Source: Oligoflexia bacterium (lineage in GTDB: Bacteria > Bdellovibrionota > UBA1018 > CAIMNF01). From it: a DNA stretch of 33,887 bases. The stretch spans positions 1 to 33,887 of the forward strand of contig CAIMWN010000165.1 of the NCBI GenBank assembly GCA_903845155.1, read 5' to 3'. Below are positions 19,109 through 33,773 of this stretch, in pieces (within the stretch, counting starts at the first letter, position 1; each line of letters starts with the position of its first letter). The notes below the pieces were generated by a model, which did no database searches, was not told where the DNA came from, and saw nothing but the letters and a program-made list of their open reading frames with translations. The translations under genes and the position numbers were made by a program.

Positions 19109-21532
19109 ATGTTTGGTCGTGGCCTTTTTACTTATTTAATCGTCATTCTTTCTTCGTTTTCCGTCACTACTCAAGTTCGCGCCGACCAATGCAATGCGAT
19201 TATCTCAGTCGGAAAAAACAAAATATTGTCTAAGGCCACACTCGTTGATGCGCGCTTTACGCTCGACAGCAAGAAGACCGTTGCGATTGTAGCTCCTGCA
19301 ACAGCCGCAACACACGCCTCTCTTCTAATTACAGAAGTGGGAGCTCAAGCAGGGAAGACAATAGATCCCTTTGCGCGCGCTTCGTATCCGGGTGTGACAG
19401 TGCAGTTATCGACAGATGCGGCGTTCGCTCTTTTTACGCCACCCGCGAAATATCAATCGACTCCTGTTCTCTATGACGTACAAAACAAAAAATTTATTCA
19501 TCTCAAACTCTTTGCTCATGCAAAAGCCGCCAAAATTCTAAGGGACTCTAATACTATTATTGCAAAACTATCGGATAATTCGCTCGGGGTGTATTTCATC
19601 GACAGTGGTGAGAGTAATACGCTTCAGGTTTACCAAAGTTCATGGACATTTGCTGAAACCAAGAAATCAAACGTGATCCTCATTCGCTCGAAAAACGGTT
19701 ACTCAAGGGAAATCGATCTCAAAGTGGCGAGCGCGACCAAAACGCAGGCTCCCAGAAATTCGTATCATACTACGCAAAATGCCGCCCAAAACGTTGCTCC
19801 GGCCAACAAGACGGTTTCACCAGATGGGAGCAAGGTATTGACCTTTTATGCGGATACTTCGCGCTTGAGTGGCGGGACTTATGTACTTCAGGATTTGACT
19901 GAAATCTCTGTTGATTTGAAAGCTGCGCACATTTCAAACACAAATGTGGAGCAATATTATTCCGTCCTGGCCAAGCCAGGTGCTTTGAGCCTTCATAAGA
20001 ATGCTGGGGAAGTATTTTCGTTTTTTGAGTCTGGTCAGTTTCGACTGCACCAAGATTTGGCTCAGAAGTTACTACTCAATGTGCTCAGTGAATCTATTGG
20101 AATGTACGAGGCGCTCATAGCCCGTTACCCCGAGTTTGCCAGTGATCACTATTACTTCAAAGAAGAGATGAACTTGAAAATTGCACCTCGATGGAAAAAA
20201 GCGATCGTGGATTATCTAGATTATTTCGTGCTAATGCACGGTAATGCGAAAGACATCGTCGACGCTCTAAAATTTATTCGTCCACTTCATAACTACTTTA
20301 GACCACTTAGTGTTGCACAATTGGACACCTATTCGGGCGATCTGACTGAGTCGCTTGCGGATGCGGCCGATCTTGAGTTTACAGGAATTTTTAAATCCAT
20401 GATTTATAAATTCTGTGAAGAATACATTAACCCGATGTTTTGGATTCCACTTCATCCGGTAACGGACATTACCACTATCAAAACGCCCTTTCAGATTGAA
20501 CCCGTTATTCTTGGTACCGCGCCGATTAGTGGGGATAGGAGTACTAAAACTTCTTTCGGTTTTTACGCCAAACGTCTCCCCGTGATCGACATTCCGAAGG
20601 ATGCAAAAGCGGGGGATGTGATTGTAAAAAATAGCATCATTCCCTGGACTCAAGATGAACATCAATTAGAAGCACGCATGGATCTACAGGTCATCGACAA
20701 ATCCATTGACCCCGTCATTCCGCCTATTAAGAAATTTAATTACAAGCGTCTTTGGAAAGACAAAAAGCTTACGGGAATGGTGGTGGTGGGATCTAATTTA
20801 GTGGCTGAAGATAAATCCACCATCGAAGGCTACGAGGAATATTTCAAGCAGATGGGGTTTAAGTTTGAAGTGCAAAATACTTACACTAAAGATTTGAAAT
20901 CTTATTTCTCTGATAAAATCGCGAGCGGGGAAGTGGACTACTTTATTAAAGAAGCGCATTCGGATGGGGACGAGCGAAATTTATTTAGGATTAATACACG
21001 GGCAAAAATTGTCAAGGCTTGGGCCATGAGGGAAAATGGGTATCAGGAAGTGGTCTACTTGGTGATTCCGACTAAATCTTACGTAGACCAATATGATGAT
21101 CCTGCAAACACGGTAGAGATCACGAATGATGAGTTTGGTAAGATGATTGAAGCCCGCGAAAAAGCAAAACAACCACCCCTGGTTTATTTGAATGCGAGCT
21201 GCTGGTCAGTAAGCAAAATGATCAATGAAATTGAAAGTGCTTATTCGAAAGACCTCATTGAGATTCCGTCAACCATGCCGGTCGATATGTTTGAGAATAA
21301 GCCGAGTAATGCAGAGTATGGATTCTTGACTGGTTTTAGGGCGGGTGAAACGATGAGTAGGATTCGGATGCGAATGCGGATGAACCCTGACTATGTGCAT
21401 GCCACCGGGAATACTTTTTTACTCCCCGATGATCCTGAAATTAAAACACTGGTGAATGATGTGCTGAAGCCACCTGTAAAAATTAACGTGATTCTTACCA
21501 AAGATGGTAAGGCTTATTCAATTGATGAATAG
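19109..21532 (+). CDS. Large secreted protein, possible clan CD-like C-terminal domain
   Basis: The 807-residue product starts with a signal peptide (about 1-25, ending VRA). Residues 30-330 are strand-rich and may form a repeated beta domain. The middle (about 330-540) is largely helical. The C-terminal part alternates strands and helices: TGMVVVGSNL, a helix GYEEYFKQMGFKFEV, a strand ending at His617 (DYFIKEAHSDGD), and a strand ending at Cys698 (PLVYLNASCWS). A histidine then a cysteine, each just after a core strand, is the pattern of clan CD cysteine peptidases (caspase, gingipain, clostripain). This is my inference; I recognise no named family over the full length. It is flanked by a divergent and a convergent gene, so it is probably monocistronic. 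Confidence 0.8.
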   Translation: MFGRGLFTYLIVILSSFSVTTQVRADQCNAIISVGKNKILSKATLVDARFTLDSKKTVAIVAPATAATHASLLITEVGAQAGKTIDPFARASYPGVTVQLSTDAAFALFTPPAKYQSTPVLYDVQNKKFIHLKLFAHAKAAKILRDSNTIIAKLSDNSLGVYFIDSGESNTLQVYQSSWTFAETKKSNVILIRSKNGYSREIDLKVASATKTQAPRNSYHTTQNAAQNVAPANKTVSPDGSKVLTFYADTSRLSGGTYVLQDLTEISVDLKAAHISNTNVEQYYSVLAKPGALSLHKNAGEVFSFFESGQFRLHQDLAQKLLLNVLSESIGMYEALIARYPEFASDHYYFKEEMNLKIAPRWKKAIVDYLDYFVLMHGNAKDIVDALKFIRPLHNYFRPLSVAQLDTYSGDLTESLADAADLEFTGIFKSMIYKFCEEYINPMFWIPLHPVTDITTIKTPFQIEPVILGTAPISGDRSTKTSFGFYAKRLPVIDIPKDAKAGDVIVKNSIIPWTQDEHQLEARMDLQVIDKSIDPVIPPIKKFNYKRLWKDKKLTGMVVVGSNLVAEDKSTIEGYEEYFKQMGFKFEVQNTYTKDLKSYFSDKIASGEVDYFIKEAHSDGDERNLFRINTRAKIVKAWAMRENGYQEVVYLVIPTKSYVDQYDDPANTVEITNDEFGKMIEAREKAKQPPLVYLNASCWSVSKMINEIESAYSKDLIEIPSTMPVDMFENKPSNAEYGFLTGFRAGETMSRIRMRMRMNPDYVHATGNTFLLPDDPEIKTLVNDVLKPPVKINVILTKDGKAYSIDE

Positions 21533-26563: not shown

Positions 26564-29500
26564 TTATACCCCAAGCAGGTATTCAAAATCCTTTTGAGTC
26601 AAGTGGAGCGCACCGCTGTCACCACCGATTTCCTGATCAGATTCCACATCAGAGAAAAGTGAATTAAATTGGGCTGATTTTCTTGATTTTAGAATCTCGA
26701 TTTTCTCTTCCACCGACTCACTCATGATGTAGCGATATACCTGAACGGGTTTGGTCTGGCCAATGCGATGGGTTCGATCGGTCGCTTGATTCTCCACAGC
26801 AGGATTCCACCAAGGTTCAAGATGGAATACATAACTTGCTTTGGTTAAGTTGAGACCGACGCCCCCAGTTTTAAGAGTCATGAGCATCACTCCGCCACCT
26901 TTGTGTTCATGAAACGCCTGAAGCTGCACTTCTCGATCTTTACGGCTTACTTTTCCATGAAGCGAGAAGAAAGGAATTCCTGCTTTTTTGAATTCACGTG
27001 CCAAAATTTCAAAAGTACCGAGGAACTGGGTGAACACGAGTGCACTCTCGCCAGTTTCCATAATGCTTTTTAAATTATCAACGAGCAAAGTTACTTTAGG
27101 TGGCACTTCAGTGTAATTGACATTCGGAATTGCACTTGGTGCAGAACACACTTGCCTCAAGCGAAGGAGAGCGGTCAACATAATGAGTTGGCTTTTCGAT
27201 TCTCCACCATCGGTAATGGCCTGACGAACGCGCGAGTTCCAAGAGAGCGCAATATCGCGATAAATAGCTAATTGTGCCTCGGTAAATGGAATTTTAACCG
27301 TACTCTCGGTTTTCGCAGGAAGTTCTTTAAGGATTGAAGATTTGGTACGGCGTAGCACCAGCGGGCGTGTTTTCAGTTTCAAATACTGAATTCGCTCAGG
27401 CTCCGGTGCGTACGATTGCATATAGCTTTTTCTAAATTGATCGAAGGGCCCAAGGCTTCCCGGGACCACGAGATCCATCAGGGAGTAAAATTCACCCATG
27501 TGATTTTCAAGTGGAGTACCAGTCAAACACAGTTTAAAACGCGCAGGAATTTTTCTTGATACAGTAGTTCGTTTTGCCGTAATCGTTTTTAAGTTTTGGG
27601 CTTCATCGTAAATATGGATGTTCCAGCGGATGGTCGAGAACAGTGCCTCATGCTCAGCGAGTAAGCCATAAGTGGAAATCAACACTGCGTTGGGATTCGC
27701 TTCTAAGAAGGCTTTTGCCTCTTTGAGTTCCTTTGACTGAAAAATTAAAATAGGAAGGTCCGGAACAAAACGCTGAGCCTCACTAAACCAGTTATAGGTA
27801 AGTGAAGTGGGAACGACAATCAAGGTGTGGCCCAAATCATTTTGGTTCCGGAGCATTTCCAAGAACACTAATGTTTGAACCGTTTTTCCGAGACCCATAT
27901 CATCGGCCAAAATCCCGCCTAAGCCCAAACGATAGAGATCATTCACCCATTGAACACCGCGATGCTGATATGCCTTTAATTCGCCCTTAAATGCCGCTGG
28001 TAATTCAATTGGAGGACGTTCTTCGTTTAGTGAATCGTAAAATTTACAAATCTGATCCCAAATGGCGCCACCTTTAATGCGAACGCCGGTAGAACGTAGA
28101 GCCAGAAGCTCAAGAGTGTAGTGTTTGGGTAAGCGATAAATACGATCAATTTTTTTATTCCCGCGTTTCGGAGATTGCGATTTTGAAAGTTGCTCCCAAA
28201 AATGCGTGAGTTTCTCAAGCGAGGGGATGGATGATTGGTTCAGGCGATAGATTTTCCCTTGAAAGGTAATCATCCCGGTTTCAGATAGCTTTTTGGCCTG
28301 TTCTTCGCTGATCTCGGTCCCTTTGAAAAAGAATTTAGGATGGAGTTCAAACCAATCAATTCGACCTTGTTGATCGGGAGTTTCATCTAAGATGAATTCG
28401 GAAATAAAATCTTCGTCATTCAACTCTTCAATAGATTGGTCATCGAGGGAAAGGATCGTTCCTTCGTTTTGAAGGGGCAAAAACGCGCGAATCAATATTT
28501 CAGGACCGGCGTCTTTTTTTGAAAATATCCATTTGAGCGATTGAGGACTGCTTTCAGCGGAAAATTGTAAATCTTTAAGAGTGGATGGATCTTCAAACGA
28601 AGGATTTTGAATCACGCCATCTTTGGTTTTCAAGAGCACTGCGCCTTGGGTTTGCGCTTGGCTTAACGTGATCCATGCATACACTAGTTTTAAGTAAAAA
28701 GCGTAAACGCCACTCACTAAGCAATTTCTCTCGGTAAGAACCAGAGGGAAAAGTTTTTCATCGTAGAGGTTTTTTAAGTCGTGGATATAAGCTTCAAGAT
28801 ATTCAATTGCTGATTTTGAACAAAACACTTCGAGGGTGAGATTCTGAGAGTGCGGTGCACCCTCGAGCTTATTCATGAGTTGAGCAAGTTTCGCCTTCAA
28901 AAGATCAAAAAAGGTGTGAAAAGGTTTATCCTTTTTCATGAAATGTCGGACGGATTCTTGAAATACGACCGCTGCAATACCAATGTGTCTGAGCAAGCGG
29001 AGGTCATTGGCGCGTTTTGCTTGTTTTTTCTGCGCGAACATTTGTTCGCTTAAATTTTCATCCCACGCACGAATGCCGAGGCTCAAGATTTGAAGTTGCT
29101 TTAGAATAGGCAAAGGGATTCCATCGAGAACTCCAAAATCAAAACCGAGTTCTGCAGAAAAAGTCCCGTTTGAAAAAACGCGAATATGCGGGGTAAAAGA
29201 CTCACTCTTTAGAAATTGAAAGGGTGGATAGGCGTGGATTTCGTTTAAGTTTGCATGAAACTCGTCTTGCATGCGGTTAAAGGTAGTTTCAAAAATACCG
29301 TGAGATTCAATTTCAATTTTTGGCGGATAGTGCTCAAGCCAGTGATTGAAGGGATGGAAAAACAATTGTGCTTGGCCAGGGTGAATGGCGAGAGTGGAGA
29401 GCCAAATCCATTCAGGTTTGAGATCTAGACTAATTTCGGTTTTAAGGTCATTGCCGAGTGAGCGAATTTGGTAGCCAGATTGAAGTCCTGCAGGTGGATG

Positions 29501-30562
29501 AAGCTCGACGGAATTGAGCTCGATCGCGACGTCCTGGGAATCCAGAATTTCGGAATGTGAAAAATACACTTTTAGGCGATCGCGTTTTAAAAGCTTTGCT
29601 GCTTCCTGGGTGACCGAGAGAAGGATTGCGTCTAAACGATCGTCCGCTTTTTGATCCCAGACCGTAATATCTTTTGATTTCGGAAAGAAGCGAAGTCGTT
29701 TCTTTTCTAAAAAGCTTTCATTCAAATTAGAAGCGACAGGAAGAAGTTCGGCAGGAACCAATCGGCTATGTTGATGATAAAGGAGCTCAGAAACGGGGAT
29801 TCTGGTGTGATCGGAGAATAAATAATAAATGCTTTTTCGTCTCAATTGTTCATGAGGATTTTGAAAAAGGTTATTGGTCGTTCCTCGAAACGATACCGGC
29901 GAACGCCAAAGCGGATGGGGTAGATCAGATTCGCGATGGTACGGAGTTGCGAGGTCGGGAAGGAGGGCGTCTTGGTGAGTGCGTGCTTTAGTAAAGGTGT
30001 GATTAAAGACCAGGGCGCTTAAGCCCTCTTGGATGGCCTGATTCGGAAAGCAAAAAACGATCCCTTCAAAGCGGGCATTACTGCTGACGTTGCTTGAATT
30101 GGCCGATAAATCATGGTGACCTGAAGCGCTCTCCTCTGGACTGAATGAACTTTGGGCGGGTGGGACACTTTTTATTTTTGCAAATAACTCTTCAAACGTT
30201 TTAATGTGGTTAATGACTGGTTCGCCCACGCGGGTGAGTTCATATTGGCCAGAGCAAAGACAGCTCAAAACCCAAGCGGCGAGCGCTTGATGCTTACAGA
30301 AAATCCCATAAGAGGACATGGAGCAGTTGCATTCGGAGAAGAAAGGTTGCGATGCAGCGCTGTATTCTACTTTGGTCTCAGCACTCTCATCCAATTTAAA
30401 TTCAATAAGATAGCCCTTGGCTCCTAGCGTTGCAACATCGATACCTTGGAAACCTCCGTCACGGAGGTATTGTAATCCACGCTCAAGCGCAGAGGGGTCT
30501 AGGCCTTTTTTTAACGCGGATTGACCAATGCGTTTAAGCTCCTGAAGTGAAGGAAGTTTCAT
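26564..30562 (-). CDS. SNF2-family helicase with N-terminal SWIM zinc finger
   Basis: This large DNA-dependent ATPase of 1332 residues carries an N-terminal SWIM zinc finger (Cys78, Cys80, Cys89, His91; CNCSMSSYGIFCKH). A long, poorly conserved middle region follows. The SNF2 N-terminal lobe has ADDMGLGKT near residue 885, IYDEAQNLKT and LTGTPLENH. The C-terminal lobe has SLHGKVSRKDRE, LKTGGVGLNLTKASYV and DRTHRIGQTKPVQVYR near residue 1265. Such bacterial proteins remodel protein-DNA or transcription complexes; the exact substrate is unknown. The ATG at 30562 is preferred to TTG 30583, with GGTGA upstream. It heads the - strand run that continues with xerD. Confidence 0.93.
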   Translation of the reverse strand: MKLPSLQELKRIGQSALKKGLDPSALERGLQYLRDGGFQGIDVATLGAKGYLIEFKLDESAETKVEYSAASQPFFSECNCSMSSYGIFCKHQALAAWVLSCLCSGQYELTRVGEPVINHIKTFEELFAKIKSVPPAQSSFSPEESASGHHDLSANSSNVSSNARFEGIVFCFPNQAIQEGLSALVFNHTFTKARTHQDALLPDLATPYHRESDLPHPLWRSPVSFRGTTNNLFQNPHEQLRRKSIYYLFSDHTRIPVSELLYHQHSRLVPAELLPVASNLNESFLEKKRLRFFPKSKDITVWDQKADDRLDAILLSVTQEAAKLLKRDRLKVYFSHSEILDSQDVAIELNSVELHPPAGLQSGYQIRSLGNDLKTEISLDLKPEWIWLSTLAIHPGQAQLFFHPFNHWLEHYPPKIEIESHGIFETTFNRMQDEFHANLNEIHAYPPFQFLKSESFTPHIRVFSNGTFSAELGFDFGVLDGIPLPILKQLQILSLGIRAWDENLSEQMFAQKKQAKRANDLRLLRHIGIAAVVFQESVRHFMKKDKPFHTFFDLLKAKLAQLMNKLEGAPHSQNLTLEVFCSKSAIEYLEAYIHDLKNLYDEKLFPLVLTERNCLVSGVYAFYLKLVYAWITLSQAQTQGAVLLKTKDGVIQNPSFEDPSTLKDLQFSAESSPQSLKWIFSKKDAGPEILIRAFLPLQNEGTILSLDDQSIEELNDEDFISEFILDETPDQQGRIDWFELHPKFFFKGTEISEEQAKKLSETGMITFQGKIYRLNQSSIPSLEKLTHFWEQLSKSQSPKRGNKKIDRIYRLPKHYTLELLALRSTGVRIKGGAIWDQICKFYDSLNEERPPIELPAAFKGELKAYQHRGVQWVNDLYRLGLGGILADDMGLGKTVQTLVFLEMLRNQNDLGHTLIVVPTSLTYNWFSEAQRFVPDLPILIFQSKELKEAKAFLEANPNAVLISTYGLLAEHEALFSTIRWNIHIYDEAQNLKTITAKRTTVSRKIPARFKLCLTGTPLENHMGEFYSLMDLVVPGSLGPFDQFRKSYMQSYAPEPERIQYLKLKTRPLVLRRTKSSILKELPAKTESTVKIPFTEAQLAIYRDIALSWNSRVRQAITDGGESKSQLIMLTALLRLRQVCSAPSAIPNVNYTEVPPKVTLLVDNLKSIMETGESALVFTQFLGTFEILAREFKKAGIPFFSLHGKVSRKDREVQLQAFHEHKGGGVMLMTLKTGGVGLNLTKASYVFHLEPWWNPAVENQATDRTHRIGQTKPVQVYRYIMSESVEEKIEILKSRKSAQFNSLFSDVESDQEIGGDSGALHLTQKDFEYLLGV

Positions 30563-30682
30563 TCGCCATATTGTCACCGACAATGAAAGTCAATTCAAGC
30601 TCTAAATGGGGGGCACCTAGTTATAAATAACGTTGCATTCGTAATCAAATGCGTGAAAATAGGAGCACTAGGAGAATAGAAT

Positions 30683-31063
30683 ATGGAAAATCACAACTCA
30701 CGTCGTACATTCTTGACCACAGTCACGCTCGGGGTCGCCACTTTGTTTGCTGCACCTTTTATCAAAATGCAGGGAGCATTAGCTGCATTAGTCAGCATGA
30801 ACGATCCGCTGGTAAAGGCTTTAGGCTATTTCAACGTTGCCGAAGCTGAAGTGGCTGCCAAAGGAAAAGGCGCCGGGGCCGATCAGGCCAAAGCCTCTCT
30901 TAAGGCCAGAACTGACAAAAAGGCATTTTGTTCTACCTGCAACTTCTATCAAGGAGATGCAAAATCAAAAACCGCTAAATGCACACTGATTACTTCAGGT
31001 GACGTGGCATCAACCGGATGGTGCCGTTCATGGTCAGCAAAACAAGTTCAGAAGAAAGCCTAA
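30683..31063 (+). CDS. Tat-exported high-potential iron-sulfur protein (HiPIP)
   Basis: This 126-residue periplasmic electron carrier has a twin-arginine signal (SRRTFLTTVTLGVATLFAAP, Arg7-Arg8). The [4Fe-4S] cluster ligands are Cys83, Cys86, Cys100 and Cys114, in FCSTCNFY, KCTLI and GWCRSW, the typical HiPIP spacing and C-terminal aromatic context. HiPIPs usually donate electrons to respiratory oxidases or reaction centres; no partner gene is present here. AGGAGAA lies before the ATG. The 3' end overlaps the start of the HEAT-repeat gene, so the two are probably co-expressed. It is divergent from the SNF2 helicase across 120 bases that presumably hold both promoters. Confidence 0.92.
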   Translation: MENHNSRRTFLTTVTLGVATLFAAPFIKMQGALAALVSMNDPLVKALGYFNVAEAEVAAKGKGAGADQAKASLKARTDKKAFCSTCNFYQGDAKSKTAKCTLITSGDVASTGWCRSWSAKQVQKKA

Positions 31064-33723
31064 CTACCGCTTCGATTGAGGAGTGGGCGGATTCTCCCAC
31101 TCCCGATCATGCGCGTGCACTCATTCGTCTCTATAAGGAGAGCGAGTGGAGATCTACGCGCTTGGAGGTGCTCCGAAGTCTGGGGCGCTTTCAGGATTCG
31201 CGGTCACTTCAGTTTTTAATCGAAATTGCCGAAAAAAATGAAGATTTAAGCGAGCAACAACTCGCCATTTTGGCCATCAGTCAGAGAAAAACAAAAACAG
31301 CCCAAGTGTTTTTAAAGAATTTTTATTTGAATGCCCCCGACACTTTGAAGCCTCATCTTGCGTACGCCCTCGGACAGGCGCAGGATTTTACCGCGATTCC
31401 GTACTTACTGAAAGATTGGGACCACGCTTACTCTCGGCAAGACTGGCTGTGGTTTAGAAACATTATTCTTTCGCTCGGTGACCTTAAGGCACACGAAGCG
31501 CTTCCAAAAATTAGAAGTTTATTTACTCGGCACATCGCGCTTGAATCTGAGATTACACTGGCGCTCCTTTTTGCAATGGCAAGACTGGAACGGGATCCTG
31601 TAATTTTGCAGCCGCTTGAACGGAATTTTTCTGAAGACTCTCTGCTGTTCCAGGTGTTTCAAAGTACACTTTCCCAAGTGCAAATTCGAAGTCAGTTTAA
31701 GCTTGAAGATTATTTAGGAAAAATCTTTACCCTCGCTCATCCTCATCCCATTCTACCTTTGGAACTTAAATCGTTTGAAGTGAGTGAAGTGGAGCTCGGG
31801 CTCAGTATTTTTAGTATAGAGCAAGATTGGAAGCGTTACCTGCTGGCGCTCTCTGGTGTTCCGGCTGCGAAACGAGTTCCATATCTCGAAAAAATAATAC
31901 AAATACTTACCCAAAGAGACGATCAAGTTGAATATTTGGATCTGGCTTCAAAGTTGCTCGAAGATTCAAATCAAGCTTTGATTTTAAAAGTACTGGAACC
32001 ATTTTCAAAGAGCAAGGATTTGGAGCTTAAGTTAAAATGGTTAGAGTGCGTGGCTCAGTATGTTGATTTGGCGACTTTTGCAAAAGAATTTTTAACGGGG
32101 AGCGATCAAAGTTTAGCTATTCAATATCTGAATTTATGGAGCGAATGGAATTTAATTAAACACGCAGCTAAAAAAGCTGATGCATCTCCAGTATTGTTAG
32201 TTCATGAATGGCGAAAGAATTACAAAATGAGCCCTCAAGTGTATGCGCGACTGATGAGGGCCTGTGCGGAACTTGGAATTGAAGCGAAGGAAATTGCAGC
32301 TACTTTTACCGCAGACTTTAAGGATACTTTGCTTCGCAGTTCGTTGCTCATGTTTATTGAACGGTTTCCAAAACTATTTGATTTTAAGATGGTGGTGAAA
32401 GAAGTCCTTTTGTTGAGTGCGATTGAACAAGAAAATCTGGGGCCCCGTATTCTTGCCGTTTTCGAGGCGTTTTCTCATGCAAAAGCCGAAATGAAACTTG
32501 ATCCTAAATTAAACGAGCTTTTGAAGACCTATGGTAATCATTTTAATATTGAGCTTCGGGTCGGAGTGCTGAAGTTTTTGAGAAATCAACCTTATCCAGA
32601 ATGGGAAGGGTATGTGCTTGATCAAGTGACCAATCAAAACCCACTGGTGCAATTAAACTCTGTGATTAGCTTAAAAAGCTATGCAGAATCCAAACTCGCA
32701 AGCGAAGTATTGGGCGAGCAATTAAAATCTACCTCAAAAATTGTGCAGGGTCGGGCACTCGATGCTTTATGTGCCCACTCATCATTAACCGCCAAGCGTG
32801 CCGTCATTGCTTACGTGGAAACAAATTTGGAAGACGAAGTAGTGGTGGATAAAGTTTACCGCTCATTTGATCCGATGAAAAAGGGCGGCCAAGAATTTGT
32901 AAAAGCAGTGGATACTTTACTGAATAAAAATCCTGATCATCCGAGCTGGGAAAAACTCGTCAGTTTACGCGATCGCTTGTCGCTTTCGAGTGCAGAACAT
33001 GGTTTCTCCGTTGATTTAACGAAAGAAGCAGTGAATCCGGCCCTGAAGGAAATGGACCAGGCTCTGATTCAAGTGATCCCGCACTTTCATAAACTTGATT
33101 CCATGACCCAATCTGCCTTACGTGCGGCTGAGACTCCGTTCTTGCTTGCGCTCGATCAGCAGAACTTACCCGTGGATAAGGCCCCAACCGTGCTTGAATA
33201 CTGCAAAGCTCTGGATTTGATTTTAGAACGAAATTTAGGGCAAAAACACCTCTTTTCAAAACTCGATACTCAACTTCACGATTTTCAAACGTTGTGGCAC
33301 CGGGTGGGGTTTCAGGAAGATTATCCTTCGAGCGATAAAGTGATGACACTTCTTGGGCTCAAGGGTAAAATTACGCCCGAGCATTTTCCCCTTCATAAAG
33401 CCAAAATGATGTGCGGTACTTTTTTTAATGGAAAGATTCTTCAAGACCGCTTTAAGGTGTTCGATGGCTTGCGTGCCTGGGCTGTCATTTTTCTAGTGTT
33501 TACGCGTAAGATTCCGCTCACCACGGGGTCGGTCGGGCCCTTGCTTAAACTTCCGAATGTGACCGATGAAAAGTGTATCTCGGTTGCGAAGCGCTTGATG
33601 TTACTTCAGGATTTACGAAATCCCGCAGCCCACAGGCAAACCTATACTGATTTAGCTTCGGTGCAGAATGTGCGCAATGAAGCGATTCTTTTGCTCAATA
33701 CCATTTTGGAGATGGTGCTTTAG
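31030..33723 (+). CDS. Large HEAT-repeat protein with HEPN-like C-terminus
   Basis: This cytoplasmic protein of about 897 residues has no signal peptide or membrane segment. Most of it consists of paired amphipathic helices of HEAT/PBS-lyase type, clearest at about 15-160 (RSTRLEVLRSLGRFQDSRSL, DWLWFRNIILSLGDLKAHEA) and 520-600. The last 70 residues differ: KRLMLLQDLRNPAAHR contains Arg863-Asn-x3-His868, followed by a helix ending at the C-terminus. This matches the R-(N/D/H)-x3-H signature of HEPN RNase domains, which lies in an RNA-cleaving active site, though other four-helix proteins share it. ATG 31030 has GGATGGTG upstream; ATG 31018 is also possible. It overlaps the HiPIP gene by about 34 bases. 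Function is not known; scaffolding plus RNA binding or cleavage is speculative. Confidence 0.8.
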   Translation: MVSKTSSEESLTTASIEEWADSPTPDHARALIRLYKESEWRSTRLEVLRSLGRFQDSRSLQFLIEIAEKNEDLSEQQLAILAISQRKTKTAQVFLKNFYLNAPDTLKPHLAYALGQAQDFTAIPYLLKDWDHAYSRQDWLWFRNIILSLGDLKAHEALPKIRSLFTRHIALESEITLALLFAMARLERDPVILQPLERNFSEDSLLFQVFQSTLSQVQIRSQFKLEDYLGKIFTLAHPHPILPLELKSFEVSEVELGLSIFSIEQDWKRYLLALSGVPAAKRVPYLEKIIQILTQRDDQVEYLDLASKLLEDSNQALILKVLEPFSKSKDLELKLKWLECVAQYVDLATFAKEFLTGSDQSLAIQYLNLWSEWNLIKHAAKKADASPVLLVHEWRKNYKMSPQVYARLMRACAELGIEAKEIAATFTADFKDTLLRSSLLMFIERFPKLFDFKMVVKEVLLLSAIEQENLGPRILAVFEAFSHAKAEMKLDPKLNELLKTYGNHFNIELRVGVLKFLRNQPYPEWEGYVLDQVTNQNPLVQLNSVISLKSYAESKLASEVLGEQLKSTSKIVQGRALDALCAHSSLTAKRAVIAYVETNLEDEVVVDKVYRSFDPMKKGGQEFVKAVDTLLNKNPDHPSWEKLVSLRDRLSLSSAEHGFSVDLTKEAVNPALKEMDQALIQVIPHFHKLDSMTQSALRAAETPFLLALDQQNLPVDKAPTVLEYCKALDLILERNLGQKHLFSKLDTQLHDFQTLWHRVGFQEDYPSSDKVMTLLGLKGKITPEHFPLHKAKMMCGTFFNGKILQDRFKVFDGLRAWAVIFLVFTRKIPLTTGSVGPLLKLPNVTDEKCISVAKRLMLLQDLRNPAAHRQTYTDLASVQNVRNEAILLLNTILEMVL

Positions 33724-33739: not shown

Positions 33740-33773
33740 AAAAAAACGCCCCGGAAGTAAAGCTTCCGAGGCG
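33740..33773 (-). terminator. Rho-independent terminator of the - strand gene at the right edge
   Basis: On the - strand, CGCCTCGGAAG pairs with CTTCCGGGGCG, with one T-G wobble and a 5-base loop, followed by seven T residues. It lies 30 bases beyond the stop of the partial gene at 33803. On the + strand the wobble becomes a C-A mismatch and no T-run follows, so it acts mainly for the - strand. Confidence 0.88.

Follow-up and report, generated by a model that had tools for sequence, protein, structure and literature searches.

Typical HEPN domains are described by Anantharaman et al. (2013, PMC3710099) as having inserts between helices 2 and 3 and, where helix 3 ends, an Rx4-6H motif whose arginine is followed by a polar N, D or H; helix 2 carries an acidic residue. 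The fusion of helical repeats (TPR, HEAT) to HEPN is also known already from that survey, which gives AbiJ-NTD4 with HEAT, and LA2681 and others with TPR. AbiA and Csm6 carry HEPN domains (PMC11077055), as does the N-terminal region of Roquin (PMC5303829). In the account of AbiA given in PMC11077055, its HEPN domain has an R-x6-H motif but showed no ribonuclease (RNase) activity, mutations in the motif are without effect on defence and the domain mediates dimerisation. In this work we have analysed a stretch of 33,887 nucleotides (nt) from an Oligoflexia bacterium of the Bdellovibrionota (assembly GCA_903845155.1, contig CAIMWN010000165.1, positions 1 to 33,887 of the forward strand), hereafter called the window, and we asked how a gene near its end compares with these systems. 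We read the product of this gene as a HEAT scaffold whose C-terminal part is a divergent HEPN domain, probably a dimeric, metal-independent RNase, and we give this statement as a whole a probability of about 0.55. The parts of the gene are as follows, with residues counted from the ATG at 31030.

31030..33723, + strand: coding sequence of the HEAT-HEPN-like protein, an open reading frame of 897 amino acids (aa) from ATG 31030
31066..32997, + strand: HEAT-repeat array, residues ~13-656 (Pfam HEAT_2, model helices 13-656, Foldseek and VIA-align matches)
33037..33720, + strand: C-terminal HEPN-like domain, residues ~670-897 (most conserved region; domain model)
33100..33150, + strand: predicted helix 1, residues 691-707, with invariant R698 and E701 (domain and full-length models)
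33187..33303, + strand: predicted helix 2, residues 720-758, with invariant K726 and D729 (YCKALD; model and alignment)
33463..33483, + strand: DGLRAWA block in the insert between helices 2 and 3 (domain alignment)
33565..33618, + strand: predicted helix 3, ending at R863 (helix 846-863 of the full-length model)
33616..33633, + strand: R-N-x3-H motif RNPAAH (R863, N864, H868; codons of R863 at 33616 and of H868 at 33631)
33652..33717, + strand: predicted helix 4, residues 875-896 (domain and full-length models)

The frame on the + strand, which had been called in a preliminary description of this DNA, is a real open frame that is kept in Bdellovibrionota relatives, and its stop codon lies at 33721-33723. 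The alternative upstream start ATG 31018 would give a protein of 901 aa; after ATG 31030, reading of the sequence finds no in-frame ATG, GTG or TTG as far as codon 31084. The assembly (4.29 Mb, 337 contigs) contains the gene once, and searching it with a profile of the C-terminal domain found this one copy only. The N-terminal part consists of tandem HEAT helical hairpins, recognized both by Pfam (HEAT_2, E 4e-14, over the cut-off) and in the full-length model, a helical array whose Foldseek and VIA-align matches are alphaRep, CAND1, SF3B1, PP2A-A and importins; the best VIA-align match is alphaRep (Z 15.1, root-mean-square deviation (rmsd) 3.3, 181 residues aligned). With E values up to 1 allowed, HEAT models were the only ones that Pfam gave for the protein. 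The helical repeats of the preliminary description are therefore a true HEAT array, but one of ~640 residues and not of ~820.

Conservation is concentrated at the other end of the protein. Mean identity to the window protein over 14 rows is 0.59-0.62 for residues 701-897, the best conserved part, and mostly 0.17-0.45 in the 50-residue blocks before residue 701, with 0.57 at 201-250. Conservation and models together delimit a C-terminal domain of ~230 residues, all-helical in the model; the distinct segment of 70 residues proposed earlier is only its last third, because the conserved unit begins near residue 670. We aligned 20 such domains from three families (15 homologous domains and five more distant members), of which the other 19 are 36-75% identical to that of the window. 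R863, N864 and H868 are invariant in all 20, so that the R-x4-H motif put forward earlier is borne out and its Arg/His pair is kept in homologues. Around the motif P865, A867, R869 and T871 are also invariant, as are R698, E701, K726, D729, H789 and K790 elsewhere in the domain and D812, G813, L814, R815 and W817 of the DGLRAWA block. It is this conservation that must carry the argument, since R-x4-H, present once in the protein and conserved in the 15/15 aligned homologues that reach it, is expected about once by chance: shuffled proteins of the same composition contained it 1.03 times on average, and R-N-x3-H 0.034 times, and the motif alone is thus weak evidence.

The domain was modelled with AlphaFold2 from a five-row alignment (mean predicted local distance difference test score (pLDDT) 78.5, predicted template modelling score (pTM) 0.79), and a model of the full-length protein had a mean pLDDT of 77.0 and a pTM of 0.57. 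In the numbering of the domain model (window residue = domain residue + 664), helix 1 spans 27-43 and helix 2 spans 56-94; a helical insert leads to helix 3 at 182-197, after which come R199, N200 and H204 and then helix 4 at 211-232. Both models are helical and agree on a long helix 2, a helical insert, a helix 3 that ends at or just before R863 and a helix 4 that runs to the C terminus. The predicted fold is a helical-hairpin bundle with the motif at the HEPN position, which is what the preliminary description had anticipated. As in typical HEPN domains, the models show two helical hairpins, helices 2 and 3 being separated by an insert; R863 would end the helix 846-863 and H868 would lie in the following loop, arginine and histidine being kept in 20/20. 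The polar residue after the arginine is N in all 20 domains of the family, and the acidic D729, equally invariant in the predicted helix 2, is a candidate for the HEPN helix-2 acidic residue. The domain differs in having a large helical insert and neither a Pfam HEPN match nor an Ex3[KR] pair, the usual form of the helix-2 acidic residue. When the domain model was compared by VIA-align, the top eight chains were all HEPN-domain proteins: Roquin in rows 1-3 (Z 7.5-7.4, rmsd 3.5-3.6, 125-131 aligned), Csm6 in rows 4 and 6-8 (Z 6.9-5.5; best rmsd 4.1, 143 aligned) and AbiA (Z 6.5, rmsd 3.5, 120 aligned), with rhodopsins next at Z 5.1. VIA-align compared only chains ranked by Foldseek, so that a HEPN family missing from this list tells us nothing.

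How does the protein compare with the described systems one by one? Csm6 and Csx1 likewise have a C-terminal HEPN domain, Csm6 structures stand high in the VIA-align list and there are weak profile matches to both. The PADLOC Csx1 model matched the window member only (E 0.009), over domain residues 180-223, which is the motif region, and the NCBIfam cas_csm6 model matched one of 15 members at E 0.15, amid similar E-values for unrelated enzymes. In Csm6 and Csx1, however, the partner is a CARF (Rossmann) domain, whereas here Pfam and the model give a HEAT array. No cas genes were found among the neighbours identified by Pfam, and the Csx1 profile had no match in 191 genomes of the phylum, the window's included, with the control positive in 2/14 genomes. 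A CRISPR effector was rejected on the missing CARF domain and on the missing Csx1 in these 191 genomes. By eye only, Csm6 YAYRALELLLQERL resembles EYCKALDLILERNL of the window protein; no program aligned the two, and we regard this as a lead only. We discarded a global MAFFT alignment with Thermus Csm6, in which the motifs were out of register. In AbiA, too, a helical domain precedes a C-terminal HEPN domain that bears R-x(4-6)-H, but AbiA contains a reverse transcriptase-like domain to which nothing in our protein corresponds in Pfam, and its spacing is x6 and not x4. AbiJ-NTD4 and LA2681 share with the window protein the presence of helical repeats and a HEPN domain on one polypeptide; they differ in that the Pfam domain scans gave no HEPN_LA2681 match, and no AbiJ N-terminal domain was identified here. 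HEPN_LA2681 also had no match in the 191 phylum genomes, a search that is uninformative because the controls gave no match either. DUF4145 was found in 4/144 phylum genomes.

A further profile match is to a PADLOC model named 'TPR' (PDLC02907, 864 positions), the last ~160 positions of which align weakly to the domain in 4/15 members (window, L018, L003 and L004; best E 7e-4), reaching the end of the profile in the window and L003. The other 11/15 members are unmatched, however, and the full-length protein has no match to this model at E 0.1. Elsewhere in the phylum PDLC02907 was matched in 3/240 genomes, at profile positions 543-682 only and not at its C-terminal end. Four of the five domains from the more distant family f13 were scanned, and none matched PADLOC Csx1 or PDLC02907; a Csm2 match (E 0.003) in one f13 domain is taken for chance. 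A search of a viral structure library returned nothing interpretable (best E 0.49). No paper came up in literature searches on HEPN combined with HEAT and Bdellovibrio, or on SZAS-1.

We searched for homologues in 58 genomes, the window's own included, and 17 of them gave matches: 15 long ones, one cut by a contig end (L011) and one partial (G038), an 88-residue stretch of the HEAT part only. Within the window's genus (g1) 11/12 genomes, its own among them, have a homologue, the remaining one being G008, which is 87% complete; the single genome of g2, in the same family (f1), and 4/35 genomes of family f2 have one as well, the G038 stretch excluded. The domain profile matched 20/290 phylum genomes, always in frames of at least 839 aa, and nothing fell between E 1e-80 and the cut-off. 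In f13, 7/66 genomes match, all within the 14 genomes of genus g42, with six frames of ~900 aa and one of 331 aa. The named relatives are Bdellovibrionales metagenome-assembled genomes, one of which bears the label Bdellovibrio sp. ZAP7 and another only that of Proteobacteria bacterium. Plasmids and phages searched by tblastn gave no match, and none was confirmed in IMG/VR. Phyla beyond Bdellovibrionota were reached only by one pattern-based scan of GTDB contigs (four loci); that the family is known so far from Bdellovibrionota does not therefore show that it is restricted to this phylum. In the domain tree f1 lies on one side (support 95/91), as does f13 (97/96), and f2 needs two changes. Tree and distribution fit mostly vertical descent with many absences and not a recently mobile toxin gene. 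An empty-site comparison in g42 gave no clean empty site, as the flank genes are not kept together. The phylogenetic check called for in the preliminary description thus finds a conserved locus in f1 and a patchy one in f2 and f13.

Two genes adjoin or face the gene in its own family:

30683..31063, + strand: gene of a high-potential iron-sulfur protein (HiPIP; Pfam HIPIP, E 3.8e-12)
26564..30583, - strand: divergent gene of an SNF2 helicase, 1339 aa (Pfam SNF2-rel_dom, E 9.8e-59)

The HiPIP gene lies directly upstream and overlaps the HEAT-HEPN-like coding sequence by 34 nt, or by 46 nt if ATG 31018 is used. It adjoins the gene on the same strand in 11 of the 19 loci examined, which are all 11 loci of g1, and there the gap, taken from the earliest possible start, ranges from -73 to +6 nt (-4 to +6 in 7/11). 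This spacing suggests that the two genes are on one transcript and translationally coupled. A periplasmic-type electron carrier would then be coupled to a predicted cytosolic RNase-like protein. The SNF2 gene is divergent from this pair in 12/19 loci, those of the genus and g2; it has a weak SWIM zinc-finger match below the Pfam cut-off, and its helicase part matches the PADLOC models DpdE and ZorD, which may reflect only the shared SNF2 domain. In the seven f2 and f13 loci that were fetched neither HiPIP nor SNF2 gene was nearby. Further out in the window are genes for a tyrosine recombinase, an M50 peptidase, a class-I W/Y tRNA synthetase, ScpA and ScpB, and an 807-aa frame at 19109-21532 (+ strand) has no Pfam match at E 0.01. 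Only 164 nt of the window follow the gene, and downstream neighbours were read from relatives: in L042 they are a hydrolase, an unmatched protein and YceD. Another conserved gene (cluster c7; L042:12696-13610, - strand) is near the locus in 6/19 loci, and the copy scanned had no Pfam match. A toxin-antitoxin pair of the HEPN/MNT type was rejected, as there is no nucleotidyltransferase or other antitoxin-like neighbour among the identified f1 genes. Just past the gene, at 33747-33773 (- strand), there is a strong terminator-like hairpin (11 pairs, 8 of them GC, and a T tract) which probably ends a convergent gene lying beyond the contig end; an antisense frame of 129 aa inside the C-terminal domain (32960-33349, - strand) is known by position only. 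A promoter and terminator scan gave counts near those of shuffles.

Is the C-terminal domain a HEPN domain at all? Several observations weigh against it. Pfam HEPN families match none of the 15 members scanned, nor their consensus, a PDB sequence search gave no match, and Foldseek with the domain model found nothing significant in the PDB, its first row being Csm6 at E 2.0. A comparison by hhalign of the 15-row profile with the C-terminal 264 residues of Thermus Csm6 had a probability of 0.2 and fell on the wrong region. No position of the 20-row alignment shows an acidic-x3-basic (Ex3[KR]) column pair in at least 12 rows. The motif loop is modelled at low confidence (pLDDT below 50 for residues 864-871 of the full-length model; mean 67 for residues 201-210 of the domain model). 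VIA-align Z values below 8, or below ~13 for helical bundles, may reflect a common arrangement; since unrelated helical bundles can reach such values, we take the ranking as support and not as proof. The domain could on these grounds be a bundle unrelated to HEPN, in which a common arrangement of helices is combined with a conserved RNPAAHR loop of some other function, and the lack of a significant sequence match, the Foldseek result and the middling Z values are what such a bundle would give. It would leave unexplained, however, why eight of the eight top VIA-align rows contain HEPN and why the motif sits at the diagnostic position, and we consider it quite improbable. Judged by sequence, the evidence for any known HEPN family is weak or absent; the HEPN assignment made in the preliminary description keeps the invariant motif, the helical-hairpin model and the HEPN proteins at the top of the structural list, but gains little from profiles of known families. 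We consider a HEPN fold likely.

Catalysis by the domain we put lower than its fold, and here the example of AbiA, which keeps its motif with no RNase activity, shows that conservation of a motif does not prove catalysis. The domain might have a HEPN fold and be no nuclease but a dimerisation and/or RNA-binding module, with the RNPAAHR loop holding RNA, a nucleotide or its own structure and the HEAT array as the working part. AbiA, which in the description in PMC11077055 has no detectable RNase activity despite R-x6-H and uses its HEPN to dimerise, would be a precedent; the top VIA-align matches are structures of the RNA-binding Roquin, and invariance extends beyond the three catalytic-type residues to P865, A867, R869 and T871. 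Yet R, N and H are kept in 20/20 divergent domains, which is the pattern of active HEPN families as these are presented in PMC3710099, and we find a module of this kind rather unlikely. A different question is the role of an RNase, if it is one. The protein could be a single-protein anti-phage or abortive system in which the sensing of a phage product by the HEAT array sets the HEPN RNase free to act, the chemistry being the one we favour and only the role another. HEPN domains occur often in defence systems, HEAT repeats are reported in AbiJ-type HEPN proteins (PMC3710099), and the gene is indeed patchy outside f1, in 4/35 f2 and 7/66 f13 genomes (the latter of one genus). In f1, however, it has a fixed syntenic place near scpA/scpB and a tRNA synthetase gene, the domain tree follows f1 and f13, the searches used gave no match in plasmids, phages or IMG/VR, and a PADLOC scan of the full-length protein at E 0.1 came back empty. 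An anti-phage role therefore seems unlikely to us; a chromosomal RNase for RNA processing or stress would account for the stable single-copy locus in f1 no less well than an anti-phage effector would.

For the HEAT-scaffolded RNase that we favour, we infer fold membership, dimer and chemistry from the HEPN superfamily. The HEAT array of ~640 residues would probably bind a partner protein or RNA and so set when or where the domain acts, both partner and trigger being guesses. The C-terminal bundle would probably dimerise, each copy contributing its R-N-x3-H motif to a single metal-independent RNase site. There H868 may activate the 2'-OH and R863 and N864 may keep the phosphate in place, perhaps with assistance from D729 of helix 2. 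What is new is a family fixed on a HEAT array whose C-terminal domain has no Pfam or NCBIfam model. More tentatively, and with considerable doubt, we propose that this is a HEPN RNase family absent from the libraries searched and always borne on a HEAT array, a sensor and RNase in one protein, in which the reading of a partner or RNA by the scaffold permits the C-terminal HEPN dimer to cleave, and which serves RNA processing or stress as a chromosomal gene and not as a mobile toxin, so far only in Bdellovibrionota. If the domain is inactive, it would join AbiA as a case of R-x(4-6)-H kept for another reason, which bears on the use of the motif in annotation. If it is an active HEPN RNase, it would add a family not modelled by Pfam or NCBIfam, whose invariant residues allow a clean mutational test, and it would be an RNase under the control of a scaffold in a setting that is neither toxin-antitoxin nor CRISPR.

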